Origin: Thiomicrorhabdus indica
Lineage (GTDB): Bacteria; Pseudomonadota; Gammaproteobacteria; Thiomicrospirales; Thiomicrospiraceae
Assembly: GCF_004293625.1 (NCBI RefSeq)
Contig: NZ_CP033040.1
Location: 1 to 64,000 of the forward strand
Reading direction: 5' to 3'
DNA: 64,000 bases
The translations under genes and the position numbers were made by a program. Shown here piece after piece: positions 4,813 through 59,102 of this stretch; position 1 is the first letter of the stretch; every line of letters starts with the position of its first letter. The notes beneath the pieces were generated by a model. The model made no database searches. It had not been told where the DNA came from and worked only from the letters and a program-made list of their open reading frames with translations.

Positions 4813-4822
4813 ACCGGCCGGT
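4813..4822. repeat. ACCGGCCGGT palindrome, recF-gyrB spacer copy 1
   Basis: Exact copy 8 bases after the recF stop. Together with the copy at 4988 it brackets the gyrB promoter region. Confidence 0.95.
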
Positions 4823-4932
4823 ATTCTTTCTAAAAACCACCGGAACGACACCCTTCAGAAAAAACCTTGTAACACTTTGTTTTTAAAAGGAAATTTATAC
4901 CAACTTTCCTGCCTGCGAACCCAATCAATTTG

Positions 4933-4941
4933 TGGTAAAAT
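4933..4941 (+). promoter_or_regulatory. Extended -10 promoter element for gyrB
   Basis: TGGTAAAAT fits an extended -10 (TGnTAnnnT) about 80 bases before gyrB. No convincing -35 is seen, as is usual for extended -10 promoters. Confidence 0.5.
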
Positions 4942-4987
4942 CTAGCGACATTTTTGTGTATGAAAAACAATGTTTTATCGTTCATTT

Positions 4988-4997
4988 ACCGGCCGGT
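4988..4997. repeat. ACCGGCCGGT palindrome, recF-gyrB spacer copy 2
   Basis: Exact copy 23 bases before the gyrB start codon, within the likely 5' leader of the mRNA. Confidence 0.95.
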
Positions 4998-7453: not shown

Positions 7454-7651
7454 TTTCAGAGAAAATTTCAACGACTTATGCAAATTCAGACAACCGTTGT
7501 CACAAACATTTAATTTTGAAAAATCAGCGGTTTTAGTTTCTAATACCCTGCATTAGTCTAAAGCTATAAATATATTAGTAAAAAGCGAAACCTAACCGGC
7601 CGGTTCAAATCGGCCGAATTACCTGGGTTTCACATTAATTAGGAGACAGTT
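7454..7651 (+). other. gyrB-prk spacer and prk leader
   Basis: This 198-base spacer holds no ORF with family marks. It contains an AT-rich tract (7561-7585, with TATAAA/TATATT) that could supply a -10, then ACCGGCCGGT followed five bases later by the smaller palindrome TCGGCCGA (7610-7617). Their CGGCCG cores can pair across the spacer to form a hairpin in the prk leader. A strong ribosome-binding site AGGAGA is at 7641-7646. No terminator is seen after gyrB. Confidence 0.5.
7595..7604. repeat. ACCGGCCGGT palindrome, prk leader
   Basis: Exact copy 47 bases before prk, adjacent to TCGGCCGA, with which it shares the CGGCCG core. Confidence 0.95.
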
Positions 7652-8620: not shown

Positions 8621-8630
8621 ACCGGCCGGT
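8621..8630. repeat. ACCGGCCGGT palindrome, after prk
   Basis: Exact copy 27 bases after the prk stop and just before the terminator stem, from which it is distinct. Confidence 0.95.
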
Positions 8631-10836: not shown

Positions 10837-12729
10837 TTATCGAACAATTGCCAAATGTGCCTCAAGTTCCACTGACTGACCTAAGCGTTTTTCAATTTGT
10901 TGCTGGATTTGATCAATCTCATAAGCCGTCAGTGTTTGTTCAGATAACAGAGTCAAGGACACTCTTAAAGGCTTACCACGCAAAATACGAACCTCTCGAA
11001 TCGTTGCATCGGTTGACAACAAACTAATCGGCTGGGATTCGAGTGCCGTGACCATTCTCTGCTCTTGAACCATTGAATAAAACGCAATGCTTAATGGGAT
11101 ACTGACCAGTATCACCACGAATGTTGTCATCATCAAACCTTTTTTAGCCAAGTGCAATGGACTAAAACCCAAAACCAAAAAGGTTGCCGCCGCCGCCAAG
11201 ACAATACCGACCAAGTTCGTTAAAAACAACAAAAAAGCACCAGAGAACACATGCCAATCCCACCAACCAATGCCAATTCCAGAAACAGCCAAAGGTGGAA
11301 CCAACGCTACTGCAATAGCAACTCCAGCTAAACTTTTAGCGACTTCTGATTTCGCATTGGCATAAGCACCTGCGATTCCGGCAATAATTGCAACGGCCAA
11401 ATCCAAAATCGTCGGACTTAATCGAGCAGAAATTTCCGAATTCAATGCTTGTAATGGCATAAGCCAACTGAACAAAGTTGCGCCAAATAGTGCCAATAAA
11501 ATCCCGAAAAGTAATGTTCTACTGCTTGTAATAGTTAACTCTGTTTCCTGTCGCAAAACACCCATCGATAGCGAAATAATCGGTGCCATTAAAGGTGCTA
11601 AAATCATCGCGCCAATAATCACCGGTGCAGAATTAGCAAATAAACCAACGGTTGCTAACAATACAGACAAAGCCATTAATACAAGATACGGTGGCGATAG
11701 TTTAGCGCTCTCTTTAAGCGAAATAAACGTCTCTTTGACCTCTTCGGGATCGGAGTGATAAATCCAAGGCAATTCACGCGAGACAAGGGACGTGATAAGT
11801 TTGCCTTTTGGTAAGTGGCTAACTCGAAATGACTCTTTGGGGTCAGAAACTCGACCGGCCGGTAACTCTGTATTGCAAATCTGAATCTGTGTCGGTTTTA
11901 CCTCACACTCAACCTGAGCCTGTTCACAGGTTTCATAATCAATCCGAATTTCAACCGATTTTGGAAACTCTAATTGCAGACTTTGCGTTTTGACATGTCC
12001 CAAATAAGAGGGCAAGTTCAACACCTTGGTCTTACTCGGCAAAATCCGTGTTAAAGCAAAATTCCAAATTTCAGAAATGGATCGGGGGGCAAAAATCACC
12101 GTATGCAAATTTGGCTCACTCTGTTCGCCATTCGCCACCACCCGATGGGTAAAGGCATTTTGCTCCGGCTGATATACCATGCTCAAACTTTTTGCCGCAG
12201 TTTGAATTTGTGAATTCTTATCGGTGGTTAAGGTCAGTAAAAATGGCTGACTGCGCACCATATGAACAATCATGCCCCAAAGATAAACGATACGTGCCCA
12301 AAAGCCTTGCTGAACTTTCGCTGCCGGCTCCATAGATTGACGATCGCCAATTAAAACCGAACCTAATACCAGTTGTTGATTACAAAAAAAGTTATCAATG
12401 ATTTTCGGCGATTCGTCACTAAAAATGGCTTCTAATGCATTAGAAAGCTTTGCTGGAATATGAAAGCGTTTCGCACTCAAAGGTGCATCGGGATGAGGTA
12501 AGAGACCAATCTTTACCGGCCGGTCAAATTGATTCAGAAAGTTTTTGAGGTTTTGATCACTCAAAGACAGCAATATTAAAGAGTCACCTTGTTGAACAGC
12601 AAAGGTTTCAAACTCGAACTCATCAAAGTGAATCGTTTGAATTGAAGCGATGTTTTGATTTGCTTCCAGAAATGCTTGAAGAGTTGCATCAAGCTTCTCA
12701 GGTGAATGGTCATCGGTTAATAGAATCAT
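10837..12729 (-). CDS. DUF389 membrane protein with lipid-kinase-like N-terminal region
   Basis: A 630-residue protein. The C-terminal part (from about 335) is a clear DUF389/TIGR00341 integral membrane domain, with PVIIGAMILAPLMAPIISLSMG, SPTILDLAVAIIAGIAGAYANAKSE and VAIAVALVPPLAVSGIGI. Its function is unknown. The first 300 residues resemble the fold and order of DagK/YegS-type lipid kinases: a strand-rich start, IGLLPHPDAPLSAKRF where the family has its GTGNDFAR-like stretch, and a late beta region SLQLEFPKSVEIRIDYE resembling the kinase C-terminal sandwich. The GGDGT nucleotide motif is not visible, so it may not be catalytic. The lipid-kinase assignment is inference. Confidence 0.7.
   Translation of the reverse strand: MILLTDDHSPEKLDATLQAFLEANQNIASIQTIHFDEFEFETFAVQQGDSLILLSLSDQNLKNFLNQFDRPVKIGLLPHPDAPLSAKRFHIPAKLSNALEAIFSDESPKIIDNFFCNQQLVLGSVLIGDRQSMEPAAKVQQGFWARIVYLWGMIVHMVRSQPFLLTLTTDKNSQIQTAAKSLSMVYQPEQNAFTHRVVANGEQSEPNLHTVIFAPRSISEIWNFALTRILPSKTKVLNLPSYLGHVKTQSLQLEFPKSVEIRIDYETCEQAQVECEVKPTQIQICNTELPAGRVSDPKESFRVSHLPKGKLITSLVSRELPWIYHSDPEEVKETFISLKESAKLSPPYLVLMALSVLLATVGLFANSAPVIIGAMILAPLMAPIISLSMGVLRQETELTITSSRTLLFGILLALFGATLFSWLMPLQALNSEISARLSPTILDLAVAIIAGIAGAYANAKSEVAKSLAGVAIAVALVPPLAVSGIGIGWWDWHVFSGAFLLFLTNLVGIVLAAAATFLVLGFSPLHLAKKGLMMTTFVVILVSIPLSIAFYSMVQEQRMVTALESQPISLLSTDATIREVRILRGKPLRVSLTLLSEQTLTAYEIDQIQQQIEKRLGQSVELEAHLAIVR
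11854..11863. repeat. ACCGGCCGGT palindrome in the DUF389 gene, copy 1
   Basis: Exact copy; on the coding strand it encodes Pro-Ala-Gly in NTELPAGRVSD, at the junction between the N-terminal module and the membrane part. Confidence 0.95.
12515..12524. repeat. ACCGGCCGGT palindrome in the DUF389 gene, copy 2
   Basis: Exact copy read as Arg-Pro-Val (FDRPVKIG), the only in-gene copy in this phase. Confidence 0.95.
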
Positions 12730-12780: not shown

Positions 12781-13962
12781 TTAATCCTTACCAAACAAAT
12801 CTCGGGTGTAAACCTTATCTTTAACATCACGAATCTCGTCCACCAAACGATTCGCCACAATCACATCGCTCATAGCTTTAAATTCGTCCAAATCGGTAAT
12901 GACTTTGGAGTGAAAGAATTCTGTTTCACCCTGTTCTTCCAGTACAGGTTCATAAATAACGACTTGAATCCCTTTGGCTTTAATGCGCTTCATAATTCCT
13001 TGAATCGAAGAAGCTCGGAAATTATCACTGCCTGCTTTCATAATCAGGCGATAAATTCCTACAACCGTCGGGTTTTTCTTGAGAATCTGCTCCGCAATAA
13101 AATCCTTGCGAGTGGTGTTGGCGTCAACAATTGCTCGAATTAAGTTTTGAGGCACATCCTGATAATTAGCCAGCAATTGCTTGGTATCTTTAGGCAAACA
13201 ATAACCACCGTAACCGAAACTCGGATTATTGTAATGGTCTCCAATTCGAGGATCTAATCCAACCCCTTGAATCACTTGTTGAGTACTTAGGCCATGAACT
13301 TCACAATAAGTATCTAGCTCATTAAAGTATGAAACCCGTAAGGCAAGATAGGTATTTGAAAACAGCTTAACCGCCTCGGCTTCGGTAGCATCCGTAAACA
13401 ACACAGGAATGTCACCGGCCGGTTTACTAGCACCTTCCACCAAAAGGTTCGCGAATGTCTGCGCGCGTTCCGAATTTTCGCCAACAATAATACGAGACGG
13501 ATATAAATTGTCCCAAAGAGCCTTACCTTCACGTAAAAACTCCGGTGAAAAGAAGATATTCTCGACGCCAAATTTTTCCTTGACTGAATCGGTGAAACCA
13601 ACAGGAATCGTCGATTTAATGACCATCACTGCACTGGGATTAATCTCTAAGACATCGGAGATTACAGCTTCAACACTAGCGGTATTAAACGTGTTGGTAT
13701 CAGTGTCATAATCTGTCGGCGTGGCAATCACCACAAACTCTGCACCTTTATAGGCAGTCTCTTTCTCCAAAGTCGCTGTGAAATTTAATGTTTTGTTGTT
13801 CAAAAACTCAGTAATTTCTGCATCAACAATGGGAGATCTTTTGGCATTTAATAACTCGATTTTCTCAGGAATAATATCCAATGCGACCACTTCATGATGT
13901 TGTGCTAAAAGTACAGCCAAAGAAAGACCAACATATCCAGTTCCAGCCACAGCAATTTTCAT
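12781..13962 (-). CDS. ugd: UDP-glucose 6-dehydrogenase
   Basis: Oxidises UDP-glucose to UDP-glucuronate with NAD+, supplying precursors for acidic exopolysaccharide or LPS. From ATG 13962 (preceded by AAAGGATAG) the protein has 393 residues. The NAD-binding GTGYVG is at 7-12 and the catalytic cysteine is Cys255 in [12 protein letters not shown]. The [19 protein letters not shown] block is typical of the family. The frame is open 12 codons further upstream, but that extension lacks a ribosome-binding site. It diverges from the WcaJ-like gene, suggesting joint control of a surface glycan. The short length is that of the single-Rossmann-pair bacterial form. Confidence 0.95.
13414..13423. repeat. 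ACCGGCCGGT palindrome in ugd
   Basis: Exact copy, read as Pro-Ala-Gly in ASKPAGDIP. Confidence 0.95.
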
Positions 13963-14049: not shown

Positions 14050-15453
14050 ATGAAAAAAATCCATATGAGCCCAGACATGAACTTTTTAGCATGGGTCTAT
14101 CGATTCTTTGATTTATGGTTACCATTGATCCTTCTCGCAGGCTTAACGCAGTTTGTTTCATCGGTGGAACTAAACTCTGATTATTGGTTAATCGGAATTT
14201 TTTCAGGAATTGCGTTTGTCTCTTTTGGGCAACTCTCTGGCCTCTATCGAACTTGGCGTGGAGATGATTTGTTTTTAACCGGCCGGTTAATTTTACAAGC
14301 TTGGTTTCTTGCTTGGTCTGCCATTATTATCATGGTGTTCTTTTTAAAAGAAAGTGAGTCCTATTCAAGGCTCGTGATGATAAGTTGGGCCGCTATAACC
14401 CCATTTATAAGTATCCTCATCCGTTTATTTATCCGATATATTTTAGGAAAGGTACGGAGTCACCCAAAAAATCAAACCAAAATTGCGATTGTTGGGGCGG
14501 GTAAAGTTGGCCAACAGCTCGCGAAAAATTTGTTAAACAAACCCTTGCTAGGCTACCAAATTCATGGATTTTTCGATGACAACGAATCTTTACTCGGCAC
14601 GAAAATCGATGGTATTAAAATCCTAGGAACAACTGAAACAGTGTGTGACTCAATTGCTTCAAATGCGGTTGATGAGGTTTATATCTGCCTGCCGCTTAGA
14701 GCAGAAAGCAAAATTAAATCTTTATTAAATGAACTGAATAATTCTTCAGTAGTCGTTAAATTTATTCCAGATTTTTTTACATTTGATTTGATGCATGCTC
14801 AATGGATGGAAATTGATGGCCTTCCCATTGTCTCTATTTACGATACCCCTCTAAATTCACTAAGCGCACGCTTAACCAAGCGCCTAGAAGATGTCGTCTT
14901 ATCTACTTTCATCTTAATTGGGATTTCACCCATACTGGTTATGATTGCAGTCGCCATTAAAACGACCTCAAAAGGACCAGTGATTTTTAAACAAACACGC
15001 TATGGCGTGAATGGTCAAAAAACTAATATCTATAAGTTTCGCACCATGACCACTCTAGAAAATGATGAAAATATTCAACAAGCTCAAAAGGGAGACACAA
15101 GAATTACCTCTATCGGCAGGTTTTTAAGAAAAACCAGTTTGGATGAACTGCCGCAGTTTGTGAATGTTCTGCAGGGAAAAATGTCTATTGTTGGCCCCAG
15201 ACCTCACGCCGTTGTCCACAATGAACAGTATCGAAAACTTGTTCCTAAATATATGCAACGACATTTAGTAAAGCCCGGCATTACCGGATGGGCACAAGTC
15301 AATGGCTGGCGAGGAGAAACAGACACCTTAGACAAGATGCAAAAACGCATTGAATTTGATTTACATTACATCAATCATTGGTCAGTTTGGCTAGACCTCA
15401 AAATAATCGTACAAACAGTTTATAAAGGATTTATACACAAAAATGCCCGCTAA
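14050..15453 (+). CDS. Undecaprenyl-phosphate sugar phosphotransferase (WcaJ-type)
   Basis: Transfers a sugar 1-phosphate (glucose in WcaJ) from its UDP form to undecaprenyl phosphate, the first membrane step of a repeat-unit glycan. The 467-residue protein has four or more N-terminal membrane segments, then a Rossmann-like CoA-binding region starting at IAIVGAGKVGQQLAKNLL. One more membrane helix (SPILVMIAVAIK) follows. The C-terminal catalytic domain has GPVIFKQTRYG, YKFRTM, DELPQFVNVLQGKMSIVGPR and PGITGWAQVNGWRGE. It diverges from ugd. Later genes for a repeat-unit polymer (wzx/wzy) are not next to it, so the glycan is assembled with genes elsewhere. Confidence 0.93.
   Translation: MKKIHMSPDMNFLAWVYRFFDLWLPLILLAGLTQFVSSVELNSDYWLIGIFSGIAFVSFGQLSGLYRTWRGDDLFLTGRLILQAWFLAWSAIIIMVFFLKESESYSRLVMISWAAITPFISILIRLFIRYILGKVRSHPKNQTKIAIVGAGKVGQQLAKNLLNKPLLGYQIHGFFDDNESLLGTKIDGIKILGTTETVCDSIASNAVDEVYICLPLRAESKIKSLLNELNNSSVVVKFIPDFFTFDLMHAQWMEIDGLPIVSIYDTPLNSLSARLTKRLEDVVLSTFILIGISPILVMIAVAIKTTSKGPVIFKQTRYGVNGQKTNIYKFRTMTTLENDENIQQAQKGDTRITSIGRFLRKTSLDELPQFVNVLQGKMSIVGPRPHAVVHNEQYRKLVPKYMQRHLVKPGITGWAQVNGWRGETDTLDKMQKRIEFDLHYINHWSVWLDLKIIVQTVYKGFIHKNAR
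14278..14287. repeat. ACCGGCCGGT palindrome in the WcaJ-like gene
   Basis: Exact copy read as Thr-Gly-Arg (FLTGRLI), residues 77-79, in the N-terminal membrane region. Confidence 0.95.
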
Positions 15454-18651: not shown

Positions 18652-20013
18652 TTAAGATTTCAAGGCTGACATGGAAAAATCAGACTTCAGATAGGATTCA
18701 ACACCGGCCGGTGACAATTGACCAATTAAATAGAGAAATTCAATTTGCGCCATAATATTGTCATGAATTTCGAAAATTAGGCGGCGCTCAACCTCATAGC
18801 CTCGCGCTTTGGCTTCTAATACATCGAAGACACCACGCAATCCATAGGTTAAGCCCTTTTGAGCAGAATCTAGATAAGCTTGATTAGAGACTTTAGATTT
18901 TTCTAAAGACTCAATATTCGCAATAGAACCTTCTAAACGCGCCATAATTTCATCCATTTTAAACTGGATAAAGCGTTTTTGATCTTCCAGAAAATAAGTT
19001 TCACTCTCTACCTGATAACGCGCCGCTGTCACTCGGGAATTCGTCATTCCCCCTTCATACAAAGGCATATTTAGTTCTAATTGAATTTTCTTATCTTTTT
19101 CGATGCTGCTTTCGTAGGTTTCTGAGTCGCCGACAGTCATTCTCAAAGAGACTTCAGGCCAATATTCGGCTTTAGCAACATCAACACCAATCTCAGAAAC
19201 TTTTAAGCGTTTCTTTGCGACATCAATCGTTTGCGAATTTTGCAACGCTAAACTAACCCAATCTCCCTGCTCTAAAATATGATCGGCTCTTTTCCAAAGC
19301 TGCGAATTCAATGAGTCGACCTCTGTCACAGGCGTGCCCAAGATTCTCCCCAGACTTTTCTGAGCCACTTTCAAATCATTCTGATCACGAACTAAATTGG
19401 AGCGAAGTACATCATAGCGTGATTGCGCCTCCAACAGGTCAACCTTATTTGATAAACCACGCTCAAGCATTGCTTCCAGCTGTTCAATACGTTTCACATG
19501 ATCATTCAGCTCCAAATCAGAAATGCGAACCGCTTCTTGAAATTTCAACACTTCAATATAAGACTGAGCCATTTCCACTAACTTGGTTTGTTGATCCAAT
19601 GAAAAAACAGCTTCTTGACTGGCAACAGCGGCTTCAGAACGATCAATGCCCAAAAAACGTTTACGCGAATAAACAGGTTGCACTAAATTCAAATTCAAAC
19701 GTTGATACGTTTCTTTTGCATCCTCAACAAAACCTGTTGAGTACTCGCCTCGTCCCTTTATGGCTGAAGCAGATATCTGCGGCTTAACTTGGGCCCAGGC
19801 TTGATTAATTTGCTCGGCATCCGCATTCAATTGTGATTGCTTGGACAATAGATCATCGTTGTATTGCAATGTTTGCTGCATAGCAGAAACAAAATCCACG
19901 CTTTCAGCAGCAGCAGGCATTTGCAGACCTGTAAAAATGACAAAACCAACCGCAAGGTTGGCTAGAGGATTACGCCCTTTAAAGCGCAATCGATTTCGAA
20001 TACTCGTTTCCAT
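18652..20013 (-). CDS. TolC-family outer-membrane channel of the type I system
   Basis: The outer-membrane and periplasmic tunnel that completes the type I exporter. From ATG 20013 the protein has 453 residues with a signal peptide (GFVIFTGLQMPAAAES, cleavage after AAA). Two TolC repeats follow, each with long helices and short strands; LQPVYSRKRFLGIDRSEAAVASQE and LNMPLYEGGMTNSRVTAARYQVE lie at the equivalent strand-helix junctions of the two halves. The ORF is open to 20088, which would overlap the upstream SapC gene. ATG 20013 leaves a 10-base gap and has AAGAGA before it, so it is preferred. Confidence 0.92.
   Translation of the reverse strand: METSIRNRLRFKGRNPLANLAVGFVIFTGLQMPAAAESVDFVSAMQQTLQYNDDLLSKQSQLNADAEQINQAWAQVKPQISASAIKGRGEYSTGFVEDAKETYQRLNLNLVQPVYSRKRFLGIDRSEAAVASQEAVFSLDQQTKLVEMAQSYIEVLKFQEAVRISDLELNDHVKRIEQLEAMLERGLSNKVDLLEAQSRYDVLRSNLVRDQNDLKVAQKSLGRILGTPVTEVDSLNSQLWKRADHILEQGDWVSLALQNSQTIDVAKKRLKVSEIGVDVAKAEYWPEVSLRMTVGDSETYESSIEKDKKIQLELNMPLYEGGMTNSRVTAARYQVESETYFLEDQKRFIQFKMDEIMARLEGSIANIESLEKSKVSNQAYLDSAQKGLTYGLRGVFDVLEAKARGYEVERRLIFEIHDNIMAQIEFLYLIGQLSPAGVESYLKSDFSMSALKS
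18703..18712. repeat. ACCGGCCGGT palindrome in the TolC-like gene
   Basis: Exact copy near the 3' end, read as Pro-Ala-Gly in QLSPAGVESY. Confidence 0.95.
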
Positions 20014-24276: not shown

Positions 24277-24351
24277 AACGGCACCCAAATACAAAATGAC
24301 TCAATGCATGATACCGAACTTTACAGTAAGAAGGTAAGCAATCTAAATCTT

Positions 24352-24361
24352 ACCGGCCGGT
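24352..24361. repeat. ACCGGCCGGT palindrome upstream of the metalloprotease gene
   Basis: Exact intergenic copy about 75 bases before the protease ATG. It is the last exact copy for the next 17 kb. Confidence 0.95.
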
Positions 24362-24384
24362 TGGAAATGGATTACTTCGTCGTT

Positions 24385-24540
24385 GGTTTTTAGATTGCCG
24401 CGTCACTACGTTCCTCGCAATGACACCTTTTTTACGTCATTGCGAACGCAGTGAAGCAATCCACACAACACAGTCATTGCGTCTGCGAGCACCCCAAGGG
24501 CACTTGCTGCGCGACGCAGAGCGCGGCAGGAATCAATCGA
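24385..24540. repeat. REP-like palindromic element cluster
   Basis: Three related units stand in tandem. On the minus strand of 24388-24425 is GTCATTGCGAGGAACGTAGTG ending in GCGGCAATC. On the plus strand near 24436-24465 is CATTGCGAACGCAGTGAAGC followed by AATCC. The third begins near 24475. The third carries a 24-base block (24484-24507) that matches the reverse complement of 42877-42900 at 23 of 24 positions. CATTGCGAG...GAAGCAATC palindromes of this type occur in many bacterial genomes. The cluster fills the gap between the DUF6447-like gene and the protease promoter. Confidence 0.85.
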
Positions 24541-24546
24541 CAAAAG

Positions 24547-24942: not shown

Positions 24943-25011
24943 AAAGACTCCGCATGATAATAGGATTTTTTTCTTAAAACCACTGCATTTTACACACAAT
25001 GCCCTTAAGAA

Positions 25012-39296: not shown

Positions 39297-39318
39297 TTTG
39301 GTAACCGTTTACATGCAA

Positions 39319-40200: not shown

Positions 40201-40306
40201 TAATCAATAGAGCCAGACAACAGGGAATAAAACAGCGTAGGTTAACATTTTACTGATAATTTGTCGGTATTTATATTTGAAATATCATTTTTATAAAAAA
40301 CAACCA

Positions 40307-44144: not shown

Positions 44145-45065
44145 TTAATTTTCTTTCTTTAATTCTGTTAAACATTCAATCAGTGAGTCGCGCCAATAGG
44201 GGATTTCAATATTGAAGTCTGCTTTAATTTTGGCTTTATTCATCACACTGAAGTGTGGCCGAATGGCTGGTGTCGGATAGTCTTTTGTTTCAATTGGCTT
44301 AACATCACAATTGATATCAGCCAATTCGAAAATCGCTTTGGCAAAGTCATACCAAGAGCAGACACCTTCATTCGAATAATGGTAAATTTGAAAACCATTG
44401 TCATTGCGAGGAGCGCTAGCGTCGTGGCAATCTAAAATTTTTCTAGATTGCTTCGCTTCACTGTCAATGATGTCAAGAATCGCATCCGCCAAATCTGTCG
44501 CATAGGTCGGGCTACCAATTTGGTCAAAAATAATCCCAAGCTGATTACGCTCTTTACCTAAACGCAGCATCGTTTTGACAAAATTATTTCCGAACTCCGA
44601 ATAGACCCAGCTGGTTCGAATAATACAACCGGCCGGTGAAATTTCACGCATGGCCTGTTCACCCTTAAGCTTTGTTTCACCATAAATGTTTTGTGGGCAG
44701 GTTTCGTCTGTTTCAATGTAAGGTCGATAATTCTGACCATTAAAGACATAATCCGTACTAATCTGAATCAGAACCATATCTTTTTGCTTGGCAATTTGAG
44801 CCAATTGTTTAACCGCCAAATGATTGATCTTATCGGCCAAACCCGGTTCGGACTCCGCTCGATCCACAGCAGTATAAGCGGCACAATTTATCACCATATC
44901 AAAGCATTTATCAACAAAATACTGATCAATTGCAGCACTTGACGACAAGTCTAACTCTTCGCTACCAACAAAAGTAAATTGATACTGTGGATATTTTTTT
45001 GAAAGTTTTTGAATAGATTGGCCAAGCTGACCAGTCTTACCTGTAACCAAAACTGACTTATTCAT
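44145..45065 (-). CDS. rfbD: dTDP-4-dehydrorhamnose reductase with an in-frame repeat insert
   Basis: The last step of dTDP-L-rhamnose synthesis (NADPH-dependent). The frame is open to 45170, but ATG 45065 gives [17 protein letters not shown], the family start, overlapping the rfbC end by 8 bases. Marks: [70 protein letters not shown]. From this start it has 306 residues against a usual 290-300. The excess lies at about 202-223 ([20 protein letters not shown]), encoded by a REP-like element between [13 protein letters not shown] and [17 protein letters not shown]. Confidence 0.95.
44397..44465. repeat. REP-like element inside rfbD
   Basis: On the plus strand: GTCATTGCGAGGAGCG, then GTGGCAATCTA, followed by a back-to-back partial unit TAGATTGCTTCGCTTCACTG. 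The two halves form an inverted repeat (GCAATCTA / TAGATTGC) around AAATTTTTC. It is read through as about 22 codons of RfbD. Confidence 0.88.
44628..44637. repeat. ACCGGCCGGT palindrome in rfbD
   Basis: Exact copy read as Pro-Ala-Gly in [13 protein letters not shown]. Confidence 0.95.
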
Positions 45066-46535: not shown

Positions 46536-48386
46536 TTACTCTACTGTAACCGACTTTGCCAGATTACGCGGTTGGTCTACGTCGGTTCCTTTAATTAACG
46601 CAACATGATAACTTAAAAGCTGCAACGCAACGTTAAAGGTGATTGGAGCTGTGATTCGGCCAACATTAGTAGTCGCTTTAATCACATGAAACCCCTCTTC
46701 CGAACTGATATCGGATTTCTCATCTTCAAATACGATCATTTGCCCACCGCGAGCTTTGACCTCTTGCAGATTGGATTTTAGTTTTTCCAATAGATCATCA
46801 TGCGAGGCAATGGTCACCACAGGCATCGTTTCATCAATCAAAGCCAATGGGCCATGCTTTAATTCACCGGCCGGGTATGCTTCGGCGTGAATATAGCTAA
46901 TTTCTTTTAGTTTTAAGGCACCTTCCATGGCGATTGGGTACATAGTTCCTCGCCCTAGGAACAGCGCACTATTTTTATCAGCAAATTGATTGGCAAGGGA
47001 TTTAATCGCTTTTTCATGCTTTAACGCGCCCTGAATCAGTTTTGGAAGTTTTTGCAATCCACTGACTATCAACCTCTCTCGATCACTGCAAAGAACCTGT
47101 TTTGTTTTGCCAACGGCAACCAACAGTAGGGCTAAAGCGACAAGTTGCGTTGTAAATGCTTTGGTCGAAGCGACACCAATTTCTGGGCCTGCATGGGTTA
47201 AAAATGTTAAATCCGATTCTCGAGTTAAACTGGACTCCGGCACATTACAAATTGTTAAGGTCGGCAGTATTTTCTCACCACGTCCTTTTTTGAGTTGTTT
47301 CAGAGCAGCGAGCGTATCTGCTGTTTCACCGGATTGACTAATCGTGACAAATAACGTGTTATCTTGAATAACAGGATTTCGATAGCGATACTCACTAGCG
47401 ACTTCAACCTGACAAGGCAGCTGTATGATATCTTCAAACCAGTACTTTGCCACCATTCCAGAATGGTAACTTGTTCCACAGGCAACAATTTGAACTTGAT
47501 TAACTTGCTCAAACAACGCTTGCGCTTGGTGACCAAAGCTTGAAACCAGCACTTCTTTTGAGGTCACTCTTCCCTCTAAGGTGTCGATGACCGCTTGAGG
47601 CTGTTCAAAAATCTCTTTATGCATGAAATGGCGATGCTCACCCAACTCCACCGAACTGGCTGTCAGGGAGGATTGTTTAATTTCTCGTTCAACGCGTTTG
47701 CCCGATTCATTAAAAATTTCAAGAGATTCTCTGGTAATTTGAGCAATATCCCCTTCTTCCAGAAAAATAAAGCTTTGCGTCACCGGCAACAGCGCTGAAA
47801 CATCTGAGGCAATGAAGTATTCGCCAATTCCAACACCAATAACTAATGGACTGCCTTTTCTAGCAGCAATCAAAGTTTCTGGATCATCAGAGCTGACAAC
47901 ACCTAAGGCATATGCACCTTCAAAAAGCGCAACGGATTTTTGAATCGCTTCAAGAAGTGAATCGCTCGTTTGGCGCTGTGCATGCACTTCATGCGCAACA
48001 ACTTCTGTGTCGGTTTGCGAGGTAAACTGATAGCCTTGTTGAATTTGTTCGGCTTTTAATTGCTGATAATTTTCGATAATGCCATTATGAACAACCGCAA
48101 TTTGCTTGTTACAAATATGCGGATGCGCATTTGTTTCAGAGGGTTCGCCATGGGTTGCCCAGCGAGTATGTGCGATACCGATATGCCCCGAAAAACTATC
48201 AACGGAGGAAATTTTCTTGCTTAGAGCATTAATTTTACCCAGCGCTCGCTGCCGTTGAAGGTTTGCATGATTGTCCAGAATAGCAACCCCGGAGGAATCA
48301 TAACCGCGATACTCTAAACGTCTTAAACCTTCTAATAAAATAGGAACAACATTTCGCTCAGCAACACCACCGACTATTCCGCACAT
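46536..48386 (-). CDS. glmS: Glutamine-fructose-6-phosphate aminotransferase
   Basis: Makes glucosamine 6-phosphate for peptidoglycan and LPS. It is 616 residues. The N-terminal Ntn amidotransferase starts MCGIVGG with nucleophile Cys2, followed by [12 protein letters not shown] and [18 protein letters not shown]. Two SIS domains follow ([52 protein letters not shown]), and the end is [13 protein letters not shown] with the conserved catalytic Lys. AAGGTGG precedes the ATG. The leader is short; no glmS ribozyme core is visible. Placement before rfbACDB suggests shared transcription of sugar-nucleotide genes. Confidence 0.97.
46866..46875. repeat. ACCGGCCGGG, one-mismatch relative in glmS
   Basis: Encodes Pro-Ala-Gly in the conserved [15 protein letters not shown] stretch, so protein constraint alone could explain it. 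Confidence 0.6.
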
Positions 48387-48647: not shown

Positions 48648-51467
48648 ATGAACATTTTTGACTTCAACCTTGCTCTGATTGCCCTACTACCCTTTTTAGG
48701 CGCGGCTATTGCTGCTTACAGTGCAAAGTTCAATCGTCTAGCGGCTGCATGGGTCAGTGGACTCACCGCTTTTATGTGTTTATTACTGCTGATACCGACT
48801 GGTGAAAAGGTATTCGCAGGTGAAACTCTTACCCAAACTTGGAATTGGTTACCATCCATCGGTTTACTGTTCTCTTTCCGCCTAGATGGACTCTCACTAT
48901 TATTCGCCGGATTGATTTTAATTATCGGCTTACTGGTGATTATTTACGCCCGTTGGTACCTGTCTCCCAAGGATTCAATGGGACGATTTTTTGCCTATCT
49001 CATGATGTTTATGGGCTCGATGCTCGGAATAGTTCTATCTGAAAACATCCTACAATTGGTTGTATTTTGGGAACTCACATCACTGACATCCTTTTTATTA
49101 ATTAGCTACTGGCAACACCGAAAAGAGGCACGCGAAGGCGCCAAAATGGCCCTAGCAATTACCGGAATGGGTGGTTTAGCCTTATTAGGAGCTGTGCTGA
49201 TGTTGGGGCACATGGTAGGCAGCTATCAATTGAGTGATATTTTACCGGCAGGTGAACTTATAAAAAATCACGACTGGTACGCACCAATGCTCGTGCTTTT
49301 TTTACTCGGCGTGTTTACCAAATCCGCACAATTTCCATTCCACTTTTGGTTACCGCATGCGATGGCCGCTCCAACCCCTGTTTCAGCCTATCTGCATTCA
49401 GCAACAATGGTCAAAGCGGGTATCTTTTTACTGGCACGTTTTTTCCCAGCACTTTCAGGAACAGATCTGTGGATGTGGCTAGTCGGATCCGCCGGTATGA
49501 TTACTTTACTGATCGGAGCCTATACCGCTTTATTCAAACACGATTTAAAGGGCTTACTGGCCTACTCAACCATAAGTCATTTAGGGTTAATTACCTTGCT
49601 GTTCGGGTTCGGCACTCAATTTGCAGCGGTTGCAGCAATTTTCCATATTATTAATCACGCAACCTTTAAGGCGTCCCTGTTTATGGTCGCAGGTATTATC
49701 GACCATGAAACCGGCACCCGAGACATGCGCAAGCTCAATGGTCTGATTAAATACATGCCGCATACTGCGGCACTTGCAATTATCGCCTCCTTGGCAATGG
49801 CCGGCGTTCCGTTACTCAATGGCTTTTTAAGTAAGGAGATGTTTTTTGCCGAGGCGGTTATCGCATCTCAAGCAAGTATATGGGCTTGGTCAATTCCTAT
49901 CTTGGTAACCATTGCCGGTGTTTTCTCGGTCGCCTACTCCTTACGATTTGTTCATGATGTCTTTTTCAACGGTGAACCCATCGGTTTGCCAAAAACGCCA
50001 CACGAACCTCCACGCTTAATGAAAATCCCAGTCGATTTACTGGTCATTGCCTGTTTGGCGGTAGGCATTTTGCCAATGTTTACGGTCGCTCCGATTTTAG
50101 CCGTTGCGGTCGACGGCACTTTACAAGGCGATGTGCCCGAATACAGCCTAGCTATTTGGCACGGATTCAATTTACCATTAGCCATGTCAATCATGGCATT
50201 GGTGTTTGGAACGATTGTCTATTTTAAACGTCATTGGATTATCAGTTATTACGAACACCATCAGCATGTTGATGCTCGTCGTTATTTCCAAAAAATTATG
50301 GCAAATCTCATATACTCAGCTAAAGCGATAACCAGAAAATTTGACAAAGGATCACTGCAAAACTCTGCATTTTTAACACTTTTAGCAACATTTATAATCT
50401 CAATCACTGCTTATTGGCAAACAAACGGCACGATTCAAAATCTCTTTGGCACTCGAGATTGGCTGCCAATTGACCCAGTTAGCTTATTAGCTGCCGTATT
50501 GTTAATTATTGCCAGTGTGCTCAGTGCGGTTTGGCATACACACCGTGTTCGCAGCATTATTGTCGTAGGTGTTGTCGGCTTAATCGTTTCACTCACCTTT
50601 GTAAAATTCTCCGCGCCAGATTTGGCGCTTACCCAACTCTCTGTTGAGGTCGTCACTATTGTACTTCTGCTGCTGGCACTGTTTTTTCTTCCTCAGCAGA
50701 CACCAGAAGAAACCAATCGAATAAAACTTTGGCGAGATGGTCTGTTTGCCGTTGCATCGGGTATCGGAGTCACAATTTTAACCTTAATGGTCTTAAGCCG
50801 AGAATTTGATCCAATTTCCAACTTCTTCCTAAACAATAGTGTGCCTGGCGGCGGTGGAACCAATGTGGTCAACGTCATTTTAGTGGATTTCCGTGGCTTT
50901 GATACCTTGGGCGAAATCGTGGTATTGGCTCTGGCTGGTTTGGGAATCTTTGCGTTATTGCAAAACTTGAAACTACCTCAACCAGAAAGCAATGAATTTG
51001 GTCAAAATTGGAGTCAGGATCGCCACCCTGTTATTCTGCAAACCTTCTCTAGATTATTATTGCCATTGATGTTGATGGTTGCAGTCTATATTTTCCTTCG
51101 CGGTCACAATCTACCAGGTGGAGGTTTCATTGCCGGACTCATTGCATCTGTGGCATTGATTGTGTTCTACCTTGCCAATGGCATTGAGTGGACGCAACAA
51201 CGACTCAAAGTCGATATGCACTGGGCGATCGGATTAGGCGTGTTAATTGCCAGCGCCACCGGCGTGGTTTCAATGTTGGTTGGCTTCCCGTTCTTGACCT
51301 CAGCCTTTGCACACATCCATTGGCCGATAGTCGGTGAGTTTGAGCTTGCAAGCGCCATTGCGTTCGACTTAGGCGTATTCTTGGTGGTTGTCGGTGCGAC
51401 TGTTTTAAGCTTGGTTCAGCTTGGAAAACTTAGCCAACCGGCCGGTAAAGAAACAGGAAATTATTAA
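48648..51467 (+). CDS. mrpA: Mrp Na+/H+ antiporter subunit A (with fused MrpB-like end)
   Basis: The largest subunit of the Mrp multisubunit cation/proton antiporter, related to respiratory complex I subunit NuoL. The frame opens at a TTG at 48621; ATG 48648 gives MNIFDFNLALIALLPFLG, the usual start (939 residues). About 20 membrane helices. The proton-channel region includes VFWELTSLTSFLLISYW with the key Glu, FTKSAQFPFHFWLPHAMAAPTPVSAYLHSATMVKAG and FHIINHATFKASLFM. The C-terminal 140 residues (PLMLMVAVYIFLRGHNLPGGGFIAGL) are an MrpB domain, so mrpB is fused, explaining why no separate mrpB follows. Confidence 0.95.
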   Translation: MNIFDFNLALIALLPFLGAAIAAYSAKFNRLAAAWVSGLTAFMCLLLLIPTGEKVFAGETLTQTWNWLPSIGLLFSFRLDGLSLLFAGLILIIGLLVIIYARWYLSPKDSMGRFFAYLMMFMGSMLGIVLSENILQLVVFWELTSLTSFLLISYWQHRKEAREGAKMALAITGMGGLALLGAVLMLGHMVGSYQLSDILPAGELIKNHDWYAPMLVLFLLGVFTKSAQFPFHFWLPHAMAAPTPVSAYLHSATMVKAGIFLLARFFPALSGTDLWMWLVGSAGMITLLIGAYTALFKHDLKGLLAYSTISHLGLITLLFGFGTQFAAVAAIFHIINHATFKASLFMVAGIIDHETGTRDMRKLNGLIKYMPHTAALAIIASLAMAGVPLLNGFLSKEMFFAEAVIASQASIWAWSIPILVTIAGVFSVAYSLRFVHDVFFNGEPIGLPKTPHEPPRLMKIPVDLLVIACLAVGILPMFTVAPILAVAVDGTLQGDVPEYSLAIWHGFNLPLAMSIMALVFGTIVYFKRHWIISYYEHHQHVDARRYFQKIMANLIYSAKAITRKFDKGSLQNSAFLTLLATFIISITAYWQTNGTIQNLFGTRDWLPIDPVSLLAAVLLIIASVLSAVWHTHRVRSIIVVGVVGLIVSLTFVKFSAPDLALTQLSVEVVTIVLLLLALFFLPQQTPEETNRIKLWRDGLFAVASGIGVTILTLMVLSREFDPISNFFLNNSVPGGGGTNVVNVILVDFRGFDTLGEIVVLALAGLGIFALLQNLKLPQPESNEFGQNWSQDRHPVILQTFSRLLLPLMLMVAVYIFLRGHNLPGGGFIAGLIASVALIVFYLANGIEWTQQRLKVDMHWAIGLGVLIASATGVVSMLVGFPFLTSAFAHIHWPIVGEFELASAIAFDLGVFLVVVGATVLSLVQLGKLSQPAGKETGNY
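51437..51446. repeat. ACCGGCCGGT palindrome near the 3' end of mrpA
   Basis: Exact copy read as Pro-Ala-Gly in SQPAGKETG, a non-conserved tail. Confidence 0.95.
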
Positions 51468-54401: not shown

Positions 54402-54411
54402 ACCGGCCGGT
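54402..54411. repeat. ACCGGCCGGT palindrome between mrpF and mrpG
   Basis: Exact copy. With its flanks it extends to a larger palindrome, CTTTACCGGCCGGTAAAG, 18 bases. Confidence 0.95.
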
Positions 54412-54812: not shown

Positions 54813-57800
54813 TTAAAGTTTTTTGGGGCGCACCCAAGCTTTACTTCCTGTGACCTTTTCCAGATCAAGTGCTACATCTTTAGCCGCTTCTCGATCAGGA
54901 TAAAGGCCATATACCACCGCAAAACGTTTTTGTTGACCCACTACTTTTTCTTCAATACTTGCTTTAGATAACTCAAATTTATCGATGAACTGAAGCGCAG
55001 AACTTTGATCTGACAAGCTAACCAACTGTATTGTAAATTGATCATTACTAGCTGTTTCTAAATTAGGATGAGCCCTTGCTTCATCAATAAGCCCATCTAA
55101 ATGACTCTTTTGCTGTGGAGCTTCATTCAAATTAATCTCTACGATTTCTTCTGTCATATCAATCGTATTACTGACTTCCAGTGACTCCAGTTCGATTTGC
55201 TGAATCGCATTTTTTTGAATTTTACAATGCAAGTTTTCCCTATTTAGCGCGCCACACAAATATTTTGGTTGGTTTAAATCCAAAAATGGTCCTAAGACTA
55301 GTTGATATTGGCTTTCAGCTGATTGAGTCAGTAAAACTTCATAAGGAGTTTGGTTAAAGTGTTTAGATAGAAGTTCAGGGAAAAAGCCTCGCAATAGGTT
55401 CAAAACCAACTTAGCATTTTTTTCACTGATAAAGGTTCCTAAGTCAATTGCATAGCTGTGCTCTAAACTCTTCGAATCATCCGTATACGCATATTTATCC
55501 GCAGGGAATAATTCAAAATTCGCCCCCAATAATAATGTTCCATCACTTCCAATTGAGACAGGAATTGCGCTGCGTGTTTTCAGGTTATTTTTCTTTAAAA
55601 AATCGCCTTCAACCGCTAAATGATAATCACCCGGTGGAACCATAGAAAATAGGAAAAAACCATCAAAAGAAGATTTGGTTGTCAGTTTTTCTGTTGTTTT
55701 CAAATTGGTCAGCGTTAATGGGACTTGACTCAATTCAGCAGCATTTTCAAATAATTTTTTGGCAACCGTGACAGTTCCTTCAATTTCACCAGCTGTTACA
55801 ACTGGAATTAACAGGGTTTTAACTAATCCGGGTCTTGGTAAAAAGGATATCCCTTTATTCGAAGGAATCCAAAAAGGATCTTCTAAAGATTCTTTCTCAA
55901 CTTCAATATCTGTCACCACATTCGATGATAAACCATGAATAAAGGCCTGCCCTTGATCATTAGTCACATCTTTACGGCGAGTTTGCGGACTAGACAATAC
56001 AGCATTTTCAATTAAAGTTTCGCCTTGATCCAATTTCTGATTATTATTTTTATCTTCAAAGACAATTGCTGAAGCTGCACCCTTGGTTGACATTCGCTCA
56101 GATGTTGTAAAAAGTGAATTCGAGATAGGGTCATGACCAAGACCAAAACGTAAACTAAAATCAACTCTTTGATAACCTTCTTCATCCAAGCCTAAACTTA
56201 GACTAGAGATAGCATGTTTGTTTAACCAACTAAACGCTAATTTAGCCGTATTGAATTGTTCATTAAAGTCTCGTGTTAAGTTTAAATCCACCGTTAAACC
56301 ATCACTCAAATATTTCTGAAAAGCGAGATAACCATAGTCAATTTCTGCCTCTGGATCCAACTGATAATCTAACCCCATTCGCATAAATATCTGTTCAATA
56401 GTCGTTGAGGCTTGAAAAAATCCTGAAACCTGCTCTGAAAGACTCTCTTCAAGTCGATTCTTCTGGCGGTTATATTTCAAGTTATTCACTAAGCTGACAC
56501 GACCAAGCTTACCGCCTAAACCGAGTTGTAATTGATCAATCGTTTGCTCAAAATGACTGGTTTGTCTTTGATAAGAAAATGCATAGCGTGCATTACCGAA
56601 TATTGGCCCATTTAAGCTAAGCTGATGACTTTGCTTCAAACGATAGGTTTCATTAAATGTTCGTTGAAAATCTTTAGACGCAGAACGAAAAGCATAAGTT
56701 AGATTATGTGCTGACCCTGCATATAAAGGTCGAGATAAATTCAATGAACTCAATTGTCCTTGGCTTAAATCTTTGAGGACTTGAGCGTTGATTAAGGTGT
56801 TTTGCCAAAATAGTCGTATACCAGGTTGGACAAAATCGTGTCGTTTTTGGTCTTCTTCAAAAACATAACTCGCAATATCAAAGGTTACCGATGCCGCCGC
56901 ACCAATGCCTTTTTCAAAATGAGAGTTAAAACGAGCATGATTTGCATCATAACTATTTTCATCTTCGAACAACACATCTTGAAACGTTTTATTTTGCTGG
57001 CTAATAGAAACATCATAAATCAGCTTTCCGCCCACCAATGCAGCGGCATCTAAATTAAAAAGCTCCGTTTTTTCTTCACGTTGACCTTGGGGTCCATAAA
57101 AAACTAACCTGAACTCATTCTTCCCAACAAACAATTGCTGATCTAGAAATTCATACTGCCCATTATCTTTGACTTGAGTTGAACCAAGAAAAATGCCATT
57201 TCGGTATAGCTCAACTTCCCATCCTGGTTGTTGATAACCAATAATATTGGTCGTTTGGGAGTTGGTAATTCGACCAAATGGTTGATTAGAGATTCTCGCC
57301 CCAACTTCATTCACTCCAGAAAGATTATTAATCGTTGTTGGAATGATGTCACCAAACTCTACTTGTGTTGCCTTAAACACACCTAACAAATCAGGTTCCA
57401 ATGAATTGCGCTCTAGCGTCAGACGGAAATCAATATCACCATTATTTGAATCAAACGAATTATATTGAGTCCCTAAAAAATACCGGCCGGTCATATAAGC
57501 TAAATCACCCGCACCCAAAACTGACAATTTGGTCTGATAATTGTCGTCCCTATCATGATTGCCAGAAAGCTGTATATCGGTAAAAACAGGTCCAAATAGC
57601 CGGTAAGGTTCATCCGCTCTAGGGAGTTTAGGTTCTAAATTCACTACCGATGTGGAACCTTGACGATTTGCACGCCTAAGACGATTTTGGATGGGTAAAC
57701 GCTGTTTGGGTGTTAAGGTTAAAGTTAATTGGCGGCTATCTGCATCGGATTCAATTTGAAACCAAGCAAACACTTGACTCAGTGGAAAATAGAGTTTTTG

Positions 57801-58277
57801 TTGCTCAATTAACCAGTCATTCTCTGAAAATTGATCATTAAATGCATCGCTGACAACTTGATATTCACCTGGAGAAACAGACTCTATGGAAAACAACTTG
57901 TCTGGTGAAATAAACCATCCATCTGCCTCAAGCGTTTGCAGTTTACTCTCGGTAATAACAGCATTAATTTCAATCGGAAAATCAAGCAATGCAATAACTT
58001 GTTCAATGTCTACCCAAATTTGATTTTGTTTATCTAAAGCCTCTAAGTCACCTAAAATCAAGCCGTCATCCAAACGAACTGAAAAAATCAGTTCTCGATC
58101 AGTCGATTGTGTTAATTGCTCTTGAGTGACATATTTACCTGAAACAGGATCATAAAATAAAGAAGAGGCTGTTTCCTGATTTGCAAAAGAGACTGACAAT
58201 GGCAACATCAAAAATACAAAATGGATTTTTGAAAAAAGCGATTGATATGCGAAACGTTTTTTAAAAATGATATTCAT
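54813..58277 (-). CDS. Usher-like outer-membrane protein with C-terminal SPOR domains
   Basis: 1154 residues from ATG 58277 (AGGG upstream; a GTG five codons earlier also fits). Signal peptide FVFLMLPLSVSFAN. An N-terminal beta region (about 30-190) is followed by an outer-membrane barrel with a plug-like block (VELYRNGIFLGSTQVKDNGQYEF, FRLVFYGPQGQREE). Carboxypeptidase-regulatory-like domains follow (AIVFEDKNNNQKLDQGE and FFLFSMVPPGDYHLAVEGD). A SPOR-like segment lies at about 940-1009 (SYAIDLGTFISEKNA...YQLVLGPFL) and a clear SPOR domain at 1079-1154 (FTIQLVSLSDQSSALQFI, FAVVYGLYPDREAAK). Usher function is inferred from the neighbouring PapD-like chaperone and DUF4402 pilins; classical FimD signatures are not evident. 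Confidence 0.78.
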   Translation of the reverse strand: MNIIFKKRFAYQSLFSKIHFVFLMLPLSVSFANQETASSLFYDPVSGKYVTQEQLTQSTDRELIFSVRLDDGLILGDLEALDKQNQIWVDIEQVIALLDFPIEINAVITESKLQTLEADGWFISPDKLFSIESVSPGEYQVVSDAFNDQFSENDWLIEQQKLYFPLSQVFAWFQIESDADSRQLTLTLTPKQRLPIQNRLRRANRQGSTSVVNLEPKLPRADEPYRLFGPVFTDIQLSGNHDRDDNYQTKLSVLGAGDLAYMTGRYFLGTQYNSFDSNNGDIDFRLTLERNSLEPDLLGVFKATQVEFGDIIPTTINNLSGVNEVGARISNQPFGRITNSQTTNIIGYQQPGWEVELYRNGIFLGSTQVKDNGQYEFLDQQLFVGKNEFRLVFYGPQGQREEKTELFNLDAAALVGGKLIYDVSISQQNKTFQDVLFEDENSYDANHARFNSHFEKGIGAAASVTFDIASYVFEEDQKRHDFVQPGIRLFWQNTLINAQVLKDLSQGQLSSLNLSRPLYAGSAHNLTYAFRSASKDFQRTFNETYRLKQSHQLSLNGPIFGNARYAFSYQRQTSHFEQTIDQLQLGLGGKLGRVSLVNNLKYNRQKNRLEESLSEQVSGFFQASTTIEQIFMRMGLDYQLDPEAEIDYGYLAFQKYLSDGLTVDLNLTRDFNEQFNTAKLAFSWLNKHAISSLSLGLDEEGYQRVDFSLRFGLGHDPISNSLFTTSERMSTKGAASAIVFEDKNNNQKLDQGETLIENAVLSSPQTRRKDVTNDQGQAFIHGLSSNVVTDIEVEKESLEDPFWIPSNKGISFLPRPGLVKTLLIPVVTAGEIEGTVTVAKKLFENAAELSQVPLTLTNLKTTEKLTTKSSFDGFFLFSMVPPGDYHLAVEGDFLKKNNLKTRSAIPVSIGSDGTLLLGANFELFPADKYAYTDDSKSLEHSYAIDLGTFISEKNAKLVLNLLRGFFPELLSKHFNQTPYEVLLTQSAESQYQLVLGPFLDLNQPKYLCGALNRENLHCKIQKNAIQQIELESLEVSNTIDMTEEIVEINLNEAPQQKSHLDGLIDEARAHPNLETASNDQFTIQLVSLSDQSSALQFIDKFELSKASIEEKVVGQQKRFAVVYGLYPDREAAKDVALDLEKVTGSKAWVRPKKL
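57482..57491. repeat. ACCGGCCGGT palindrome in the usher-like gene
   Basis: Exact copy read as Thr-Gly-Arg in YMTGRYFLG. Confidence 0.95.
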
Positions 58278-58292
58278 CAACCCTACACACAC

Positions 58293-59102
58293 CTAATAAA
58301 CAAATTCCGCAGAACCCAGATTTCTATGATTAAGGGCGGCGTCTCCGGTATACACAACTTTATAGATACCTTTTTTTAAAGGTTTCGTGTTTTCTAAAGA
58401 AAATCCTACTGATCGACGAATCTTTGTTTCACGGTAAACGGCAATATTGTTTAATTCTGCAATTTTAGTTGGTTGCGTTTCTAAGTTAGGCTGCCAATAC
58501 AGTGTGGCTTTGCCATTCACACCATAATCGCCTAGTCGTTGAATATCAAACACAACTTTTTGTTTGCCTCCTTCATTAACGATTTTCAACTGACTTAATG
58601 AGACTTCTGAATTATAAGCACCACTTCTTACAAAAACTGGAATGGTGAATGACATCAACATATGCAATTTGATTTGAGCAGAATCCTGCATTTGTACCGC
58701 TTGTGGATCCGGCAATTCAGTAAACATCAAATGAGTTCGATATTCACCGGCCGGTAAGTTTGCAGGCCTTCTCGCAGCAATTCGAATTTTTTGTACCTCT
58801 CCCGGCGCTAACCGAACTTGTCTTGGACTATAACGCAACATATCTTTTGCTGAATGAAGCTGCTTTAAATCCGCAGCGGTTGGTTTAGTAATAATGCCGC
58901 CTTTCTCTGTTTGCACAATATCCACTAACCCTAAACGATAGGTTTTGGTTACATTCGAAGAATTGATTAAATTAACGTAGGCTGATCTCTCACGGTCTTC
59001 AAATATCACCCGTTTTGGGCTTATCATCAAGTTTGCATAAACTGAGTGGGAAAATAAGAAAAGGAATAAAAAGCCTATGAATGCTAATTTTTTTCTGATC
59101 AT
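58293..59102 (-). CDS. PapD-like periplasmic pilus chaperone
   Basis: 269 residues with a signal peptide (FLFLFLFSHSVYAN). Two immunoglobulin-like domains: the first has LMISPKRVIFEDRERSAYVNLINSS and RYSPRQVRLAPGEVQKIRIAARRPANLPAGEYRTHLMF, the usual edge-strand and conserved-arginine region of fimbrial chaperones; the second has VVFDIQRLGDYGVNGKATLYW. It would hold pilin subunits by donor-strand complementation and pass them to the usher-like protein, whose gene starts 15 bases later. The sequence is divergent from the FimC/PapD class. Confidence 0.88.
   Translation of the reverse strand: MIRKKLAFIGFLFLFLFSHSVYANLMISPKRVIFEDRERSAYVNLINSSNVTKTYRLGLVDIVQTEKGGIITKPTAADLKQLHSAKDMLRYSPRQVRLAPGEVQKIRIAARRPANLPAGEYRTHLMFTELPDPQAVQMQDSAQIKLHMLMSFTIPVFVRSGAYNSEVSLSQLKIVNEGGKQKVVFDIQRLGDYGVNGKATLYWQPNLETQPTKIAELNNIAVYRETKIRRSVGFSLENTKPLKKGIYKVVYTGDAALNHRNLGSAEFVY
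58746..58755. repeat. ACCGGCCGGT palindrome in the chaperone gene
   Basis: Exact copy read as Pro-Ala-Gly in ANLPAGEYRTH, at a position where P-x-G-x-Y/F is common in chaperones. Confidence 0.95.

Follow-up and report, generated by a model that had tools for sequence, protein, structure and literature searches.

The DNA analysed here (the window) comprises bases 1-64000 of the Thiomicrorhabdus indica genome (contig NZ_CP033040.1; G000 among the genomes compared below), and scattered through its genes and intergenic regions are 21 exact copies of ACCGGCCGGT, a perfect, GC-rich and highly iterated palindrome, for which dinucleotide shuffles of the window give a mean of 0.02 copies (Table 1). 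An initial annotation, made from the letters of the window, had listed these copies together with three variants of the last base (33121, 46866 and 62136), put the expected number at about 0.02, divided the exact copies into 15 inside genes and six between them, and assumed a G+C content of about 42%. Each copy and variant lies where it had been placed, our own open reading frame (ORF) caller, on which all gene and intergenic calls rest, returns the same split, and the measured G+C content is 41.5%.

The genome-wide palindrome and its placement

The genome, a single contig of 2,829,883 bp, carries 1025 copies of ACCGGCCGGT, or one per 2.76 kb (~362 per Mb), versus a single copy of the reversed control, so the copies are not limited to the window. 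In a 464-kb sample of this DNA, made up of the window and 20 evenly spaced 20-kb stretches, we counted 176 copies where Markov models of orders 1-4 expect 0.1-3.1; an order-3 model expects 0.67, or 0.20 after training on motif-masked sequence, and masked training gives 0.2-0.3 across orders 2-4. Models of orders 7-8 return 172-177. The comparison with 8- and 9-mer sub-words that the initial annotation had proposed is circular, because these sub-words are found mostly inside the motif and are rare elsewhere; models of order 5 and above were discarded as a test. The palindrome is real and strong.

Among the 176 sampled copies, 114 lie in genes, 61 in intergenic DNA and one on an edge. Coding sequence makes up 85% of the sample, and the copies favour intergenic DNA; 77 of the 114 genic copies occupy the frame that reads Pro-Ala-Gly. 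Intergenic density is 1.8 per kb between convergent genes (13 copies), 0.85 between tandem genes (35) and 0.67 between divergent genes (11). Over the first 254 kb, the 99 gaps between copies follow an exponential distribution (Kolmogorov-Smirnov p 0.80), that is, the spacing is random and not regular, and the counts per 20 kb show no overdispersion (mean 7.75, variance 6.1). The largest gap in the window (24,362-41,329) spans a glycosyltransferase and polysaccharide-export cluster and holds no exact copy and one variant (33121); by our estimate, such a genome should contain about two gaps this long. The lowest count of the 20 stretches, one copy in 20 kb, was noticed after the fact in L021 (1,830,001-1,850,000), whose genes match TraG_N, TraC_F_IV, DUF2895 and DUF3438, with TrbI below its cut-off, and which is probably an integrative conjugative element. 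Separately, the six stretches between 1.41 and 2.13 Mb (L018-L023) hold 29 copies (4.8 each, L021 included), compared with 9.0 each in the other 14, which may mean that one chromosome arm is less densely populated or that accessory DNA is present there.

Table 1. Exact and variant copies of the palindrome in the window
Coordinates	Copy	Location	Strand of gene	Reading frame	Remark
4813..4822	exact	intergenic (recF-gyrB)			
4988..4997	exact	intergenic, upstream of gyrB			
7595..7604	exact	intergenic, gyrB / phosphoribulokinase gene			
8621..8630	exact	intergenic, past phosphoribulokinase gene			
11854..11863	exact	gene 10837-12729	-	Pro-Ala-Gly	
12515..12524	exact	gene 10837-12729	-	other	
13414..13423	exact	nucleotide-sugar (UDP-glucose type) dehydrogenase gene	-	Pro-Ala-Gly	
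14278..14287	exact	undecaprenyl-phosphate glucose phosphotransferase gene	+	other	
18703..18712	exact	near 3' end of TolC-like gene	-	Pro-Ala-Gly	
21438..21447	exact	gene 21244-24294	-	other	
22741..22750	exact	gene 21244-24294	-	Pro-Ala-Gly	
24352..24361	exact	intergenic			
33121..33130	variant				last base G
41330..41339	exact	CHASE2/adenylate cyclase gene	-	Pro-Ala-Gly	
41633..41642	exact	CHASE2/adenylate cyclase gene	-	Pro-Ala-Gly	
42351..42360	exact	CRP-like regulator gene	+	Pro-Ala-Gly	
43769..43778	exact	dTDP-glucose 4,6-dehydratase gene	-	Pro-Ala-Gly	
44628..44637	exact	dTDP-4-dehydrorhamnose reductase gene	-	Pro-Ala-Gly	
46866..46875	variant				last base G
49244	variant				inner mismatch
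51437..51446	exact	3' end of cation/H+ antiporter subunit A gene	+	Pro-Ala-Gly	
54402..54411	exact	intergenic			extended palindrome folds as hairpin, -11.5 kcal/mol, z -3.6
57482..57491	exact	SPOR-domain gene	-	other	
58746..58755	exact	gene 58293-59102	-	Pro-Ala-Gly	
62136..62145	variant				last base C

Site architecture, dialects and turnover

The full site is a palindrome of ~24 bp, AAWnTTT-ACCGGCCGGT-AAAnWTT. Within the 10-mer, positions 2-9 are near-invariant (12 one-mismatch copies, 5-6 expected) and the end bases are looser (19 and 15 variant copies, 0.3-0.4 expected), and the ratio of observed to expected copies is 848, 7.2 and 1.1 at mismatch loads of 0, 1 and 2; the core is all-or-none and well maintained. 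Folding the flanks over the dyad reveals A at +1 to +3 outside the 10-mer (57, 58 and 53%), T or A at +5, T at +6 and +7 (54 and 55%) and little past +7, so that A/T tracts sit at fixed distances from the dyad on both sides. Intergenic copies show this preference and so do coding copies, whatever their phase; codon usage therefore does not explain it. RNA folding of six hand-picked copies (five intergenic, one genic) gave z scores of -2.0 to -4.0 for four of them, three intergenic and the one inside a gene, and scores near 0 for the other two.

The A/T-tract flanks go beyond what the initial annotation had described, as do the other palindrome dialects that we found in congeners. ACCGGCCGGT itself has 0-20 copies in 57 relatives (controls 0-45), and 0-15 in the 31 of them that are congeners; the congeners G013 and G024, which belong to the same clade, show a mild excess of 15 copies each versus controls of 3 and 2. 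A flanked 16-mer, TTTACCGGCCGGTAAA, matched 94 stretches in a species collection of 84,980 genomes from which our own may have been left out, and among the 80 stretches listed, 79 carry one copy and L073 carries two. When k-mers were scanned in 18 of the 31 congeners (27-105 kb each), ACCAGGCCTGGT emerged in G015, G030, G009, G022, G019 and G016 and more weakly in G027, and a looser CAGGCCTG in G025, G005 and G018, the last a weak dialect of nine copies in 40 kb. Pooled over six strict-dialect genomes (365 kb), ACCAGGCCTGGT stands at ~3000 times expectation and its one-mismatch forms at 36 times. No palindrome was prominent in G024, G013, G020, G026, G014, G003 and G031, where a signal at the level of G018 could escape. 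The scan of G021 returned a non-palindromic word, CAGGCCGG, with 29 copies in 66.5 kb (loci L253, L254, L264 and L282), 10 of them within CTCAACAGGCCGGG; this word, roughly aaactcaaCAGGCCGGgt, is a non-palindromic relative of the motif that looks like a hybrid made from half of each dialect, and it may itself be a dialect of asymmetric form.

Counted genus-wide, CAGGCCTG, a palindrome related to our own that often lies inside ACCAGGCCTGGT, reaches 236-1173 copies in 15 of 32 genomes and 3-74 in the other 17 (12 in our own; controls 0-36). In a wider count over 369 genomes of the class, one of the two other family genera included is rich in the word (G035, 840 copies in 1.9 Mb or ~440 per Mb, control 3), and the second, G331, has 62 copies in 1.7 Mb. 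Outside the family the top counts are 303-338 in genomes of 4-6 Mb, by our division none above ~85 per Mb, and many of these genomes exceed the reversed control (338 vs 20, 157 vs 4), so CAGGCCTG is mildly common elsewhere. By their sequences, CCGGCCGG in our own species and CAGGCCTG appear to be dialects with C-x-GGCC-x-G in common. In sequence logos drawn for G000 and for ten dialect genomes, T is the most frequent base at distances of 10 and 11 from the dyad in every one of the 11 and at a distance of 12 in 10 of them, with the dialect logos adding an outer G-T (strict) or T alone (loose), and in nine dialect genomes the intergenic share of copies is 0.33-0.65 at 12-21% non-coding DNA. In a tree built from 31 GyrB rows (30 of them congeners, with G031 and G006 partial; G004, a short match, is absent), G000 falls in a supported clade of eight rows, all low in CAGGCCTG, and the high/low label requires 3 changes, compared with a mean of 10.7 under shuffling and none of 500 shuffles as low. 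Viral contigs gave 5, 36 and 19 stretches for three patterns with one match place each and were uninformative.

To follow the gain of sites we aligned 20 coding copies in L012 and L014 with six congeners by tblastn, dropping the seven that had no alignment across the site. By our reading, all 13 remaining copies have at least one congener that is gap-free over the motif codons (for example, LPAG aligned with LEPE, LDHS and LADN), and copies therefore arise by substitution; the alignment of orthologous loci that the initial annotation had suggested thus points to gain by base changes and not as inserted units. At two of the 13 sites the tetrapeptide (EPAG, SPAG) is identical across the four rows shown, and about five of the 13 lie in gappy, poorly conserved stretches.

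Around gyrB we compared CAGGCCTG sites in three genome pairs. The pair at 81% identity has 14 sites in common (5+4 unique), the pair at 80% has 5 (0+4 unique) and the pair at 76% has 7 (1+5 unique), a conservation in place well above that of control 8-mers, which are identical in 14-28%. These counts cover alignable DNA, beyond which lie 11/30, 9/27, 13/18, 13/22, 7/15 and 12/24 of the sites in the six directions of comparison, and 4 of the 19 unshared sites fall in gapped alignments. We also considered whether old dialect positions are reused and found no support for the idea: within alignable DNA, a site of our own genome seldom falls on a CAGGCCTG site (1/40 and 1/12, the same site counted once per hit), and the set of copies in our genome therefore seems to have accumulated separately.

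A candidate uptake signal

We tentatively propose, with a confidence just short of even, that the palindrome serves as a signal of the DNA-uptake type, subject to molecular drive, and that it adds a third family to the Neisseriaceae and Pasteurellaceae. The supporting observations are the copy number, the ~24-bp architecture, the dialects of congeners, the gain of sites by substitution, their conservation in place and their preference for intergenic DNA, and we also count towards this proposal the presence of ComEC and the low copy number of the conjugation-gene stretch L021 relative to the mean of the 20 stretches. The palindrome would be the footprint of a sequence-specific, twofold-symmetric DNA-binding protein, or reader, which most likely would belong to the natural-transformation machinery as an uptake receptor and could drive the site that it reads to a density of about one per 2-5 kb. 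Fragments bearing the palindrome would be favoured in uptake and recombination, alleles acquiring a site would spread and mutated sites would be overwritten, such that drive, rather than selection at each site, would maintain the palindrome. A shift in the specificity of the reader would let the old dialect decay and a new one accumulate, with CAGGCCTG types in part of the genus and CCGGCCGG in our own species as the predicted outcome. More broadly, the system may represent a third independently evolved self-recognition code for natural transformation, built on a symmetric palindrome in another family and with dialects switched or lost repeatedly within one genus, a claim towards which we lean somewhat less than halfway.

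Intergenic enrichment is typical of uptake signal sequences (USS) and DNA uptake sequences (DUS), and the site further shares with them its copy number, its core-sharing dialects and its A/T flanks, here on both sides. Chi and the FtsK-orienting polar sequences (KOPS), which are oriented, non-palindromic chromosome-wide motifs, likewise number about a thousand copies along the chromosome; Chi, KOPS and like motifs are not known to form species dialects. The USS of Pasteurellaceae (AAGTGCGGT / ACAAGCGGT) resemble our site in a core of 9-10 bp, a copy number near one thousand, flanks rich in A/T, an inner core that stays invariant across dialects and some hairpin-forming copies; they differ in family and in that uptake, proven for them, is a proposal for our palindrome. 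PMC12616744 credits USS and DUS with copy numbers in the hundreds to thousands, dialects that keep a conserved inner core and a secondary role as terminators; the AT-rich regions that it gives for USS lie downstream only, in contrast to the tracts on both sides of our site. The DUS of Neisseriaceae share with our system dialects across related species, high copy number and self-recognition logic, and differ from it in a continuous motif and a known reader, ComP (PMC12616744). By analogy, the palindrome appears to behave like an uptake-sequence dialect system, for which the molecular-drive argument is set out in PMC1939737.

Several observations weigh against this proposal. DUS are not palindromic, and our site, a perfect palindrome, departs from the non-palindromic form of uptake motifs. 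PMC12616744 has USS as non-palindromic, and PMC1939737 has the over-representation of uptake sequences falling gradually with mismatch load. Here the excess of one-mismatch 10-mers noted above comes mainly from the end bases, and one-mismatch forms of the core 8-mer stand at expectation both in our own genome (48 vs 47.8) and in the six strict-dialect genomes (85 vs 82). Many species of the genus do without the palindrome: neither word is numerous in 16 of the 32 genomes, one of which, G021, has the hybrid word, and in six motif-low congeners sampled at 40-76 kb no other palindrome is prominent; a gapped-word scan of six motif-low congeners found no hidden dialect, although one as weak as that of G018 could escape. 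ComEC, which is present in our own genome, occurs in 28 of the 32 genus genomes with and without the motif; it failed as a discriminator and is a needed condition, not a test.

A scan of the sampled DNA for prepilin signals, aimed at a reader gene, gave two hits, both in a single cluster of L024 that we did not identify as a competence pilus, and thus yielded no reader. That cluster (L024:13202-19833) encodes prepilin-signal proteins of 179, 269, 494 and 513 aa beside a two-component system.

We found no description of the motif in the open-access literature, searched in part under a presumed organism name, among the titles and abstracts of the matches listed, and the accessible portions of PMC5217627 and PMC6501319 do not mention it. 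According to PMC12616744 (2025), selection of DNA during uptake by means of a sequence tag is known from just two families of bacteria. If the uptake proposal holds, a third case, with a different and palindromic geometry, would mean that codes of this sort have arisen repeatedly in evolution, and a genus in which dialects are present, absent or different would allow their origin, drive and loss to be compared. If the palindrome is not an uptake signal, an unexplained force would be holding about a thousand palindromes per genome without a methyltransferase of the kind linked to the cyanobacterial palindrome HIP1 (highly iterated palindrome 1).

Alternative explanations and minor observations

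The main rival to the uptake proposal, which we consider unlikely, takes the palindrome as a site bound by a dimeric protein that serves the nucleoid, chromosome organisation or segregation, with copies kept by weak selection; a nucleoid or segregation protein had also been named in the initial annotation. The twofold symmetry, ~24-bp length and A/T tracts would fit a DNA-bending dimer, and the spread of copies along the sampled genome and the conservation of sites in place would fit it too; the random spacing speaks against such a role, as do the copies inside genes where amino acids change at the site. A word that differs among related species, and is numerous in neither form in half of the genus genomes, is also hard to reconcile with a housekeeping site.

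Another form of molecular drive, in which a site-specific nuclease or a repair or recombination bias (chi-like or mismatch-repair-like) converts near-sites to the palindrome, appears less likely still, although the initial annotation had listed a mismatch-repair bias among its candidates. The all-or-none core, the variants at the outer bases, the gain by substitution and the conservation in place would suit any strong drive, this one included, but an A/T preference that reaches up to seven bases outside the 10-mer seems wide for a repair enzyme.

The initial annotation had likened the palindrome to HIP1 and suggested that it might be the target of a methylase. The likeness stands insofar as both are palindromes iterated genome-wide: HIP1 (GCGATCGC) and the alternate HIPs are also GC-rich, their deviations gather at the ends as ours do, alternates replace HIP1 in some genomes, and the alternate HIP rCCGGy overlaps our own palindrome in sequence. 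The methylase part of the suggestion is not supported. Neither the C5 methylase family PF00145 nor the methylase family PF01555 has a match in our genome, whereas 10 and 11 of 14 control genomes, respectively, match them, and we accordingly rejected cytosine methylation as the basis of the motif. The two PF02384 matches that the genome does contain, in L220 and L221 (1,171,167-1,175,081 and 2,153,844-2,157,596), are a type I HsdM adjoining HsdS and a 609-aa Eco57I-type methylase, both of N6-adenine families, whereas the 10-mer has adenines, on whichever strand, at its end positions alone, the ones that vary most. Outside the palindrome, RCCGGY words occur about as often as expected (ACCGGC 113 vs 85, GCCGGT 98 vs 82, ACCGGT 107 vs 110, GCCGGC 55 vs 63).

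It is thus very unlikely, in our judgement, that the palindrome was created or kept by an orphan DNA methyltransferase with methyl-directed repair, as in the model for HIP1 (Elhai, 2015; PMC4390886), and we do not file it as HIP1 because no fitting methylase was found in the families searched. The missing enzyme is not quite fatal to this explanation, as HIP1-rich genomes without a CGATCG enzyme exist according to PMC4390886, which also calls the role of HIP1 itself a mystery. That paper gives HIP genomes one or more fitting methyltransferases and ~500-2500 copies per Mb, in contrast to the ~360 copies per Mb, extended A/T flanks and lack of either searched cytosine methyltransferase family in our genome. 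HIPs are moreover cyanobacterial, and by our reading the GyrB, FieF and other family matches of our genome are gammaproteobacterial.

Insertion of very small mobile elements, or an artefact of the assembly, might be suggested by a dialect that just one of the searched genomes has in large numbers, but we reject it as scarcely credible given length-preserving replacements in aligned genes, a graded flank preference with no fixed unit, and a related word that is abundant in 15 other genus genomes and conserved in place in three pairs.

Two minor observations concern other features. In the window, 25100-29764 and 29989-31146 encode proteins of 1554 and 385 aa that have no Pfam or NCBIfam match at the cut-offs used and adjoin surface-polysaccharide genes. 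In G030 (L227-L229), a further word, GTCATCCTGA, which is unrelated to the palindrome, occurs 19 times in 60 kb where 0.06 copies are expected.

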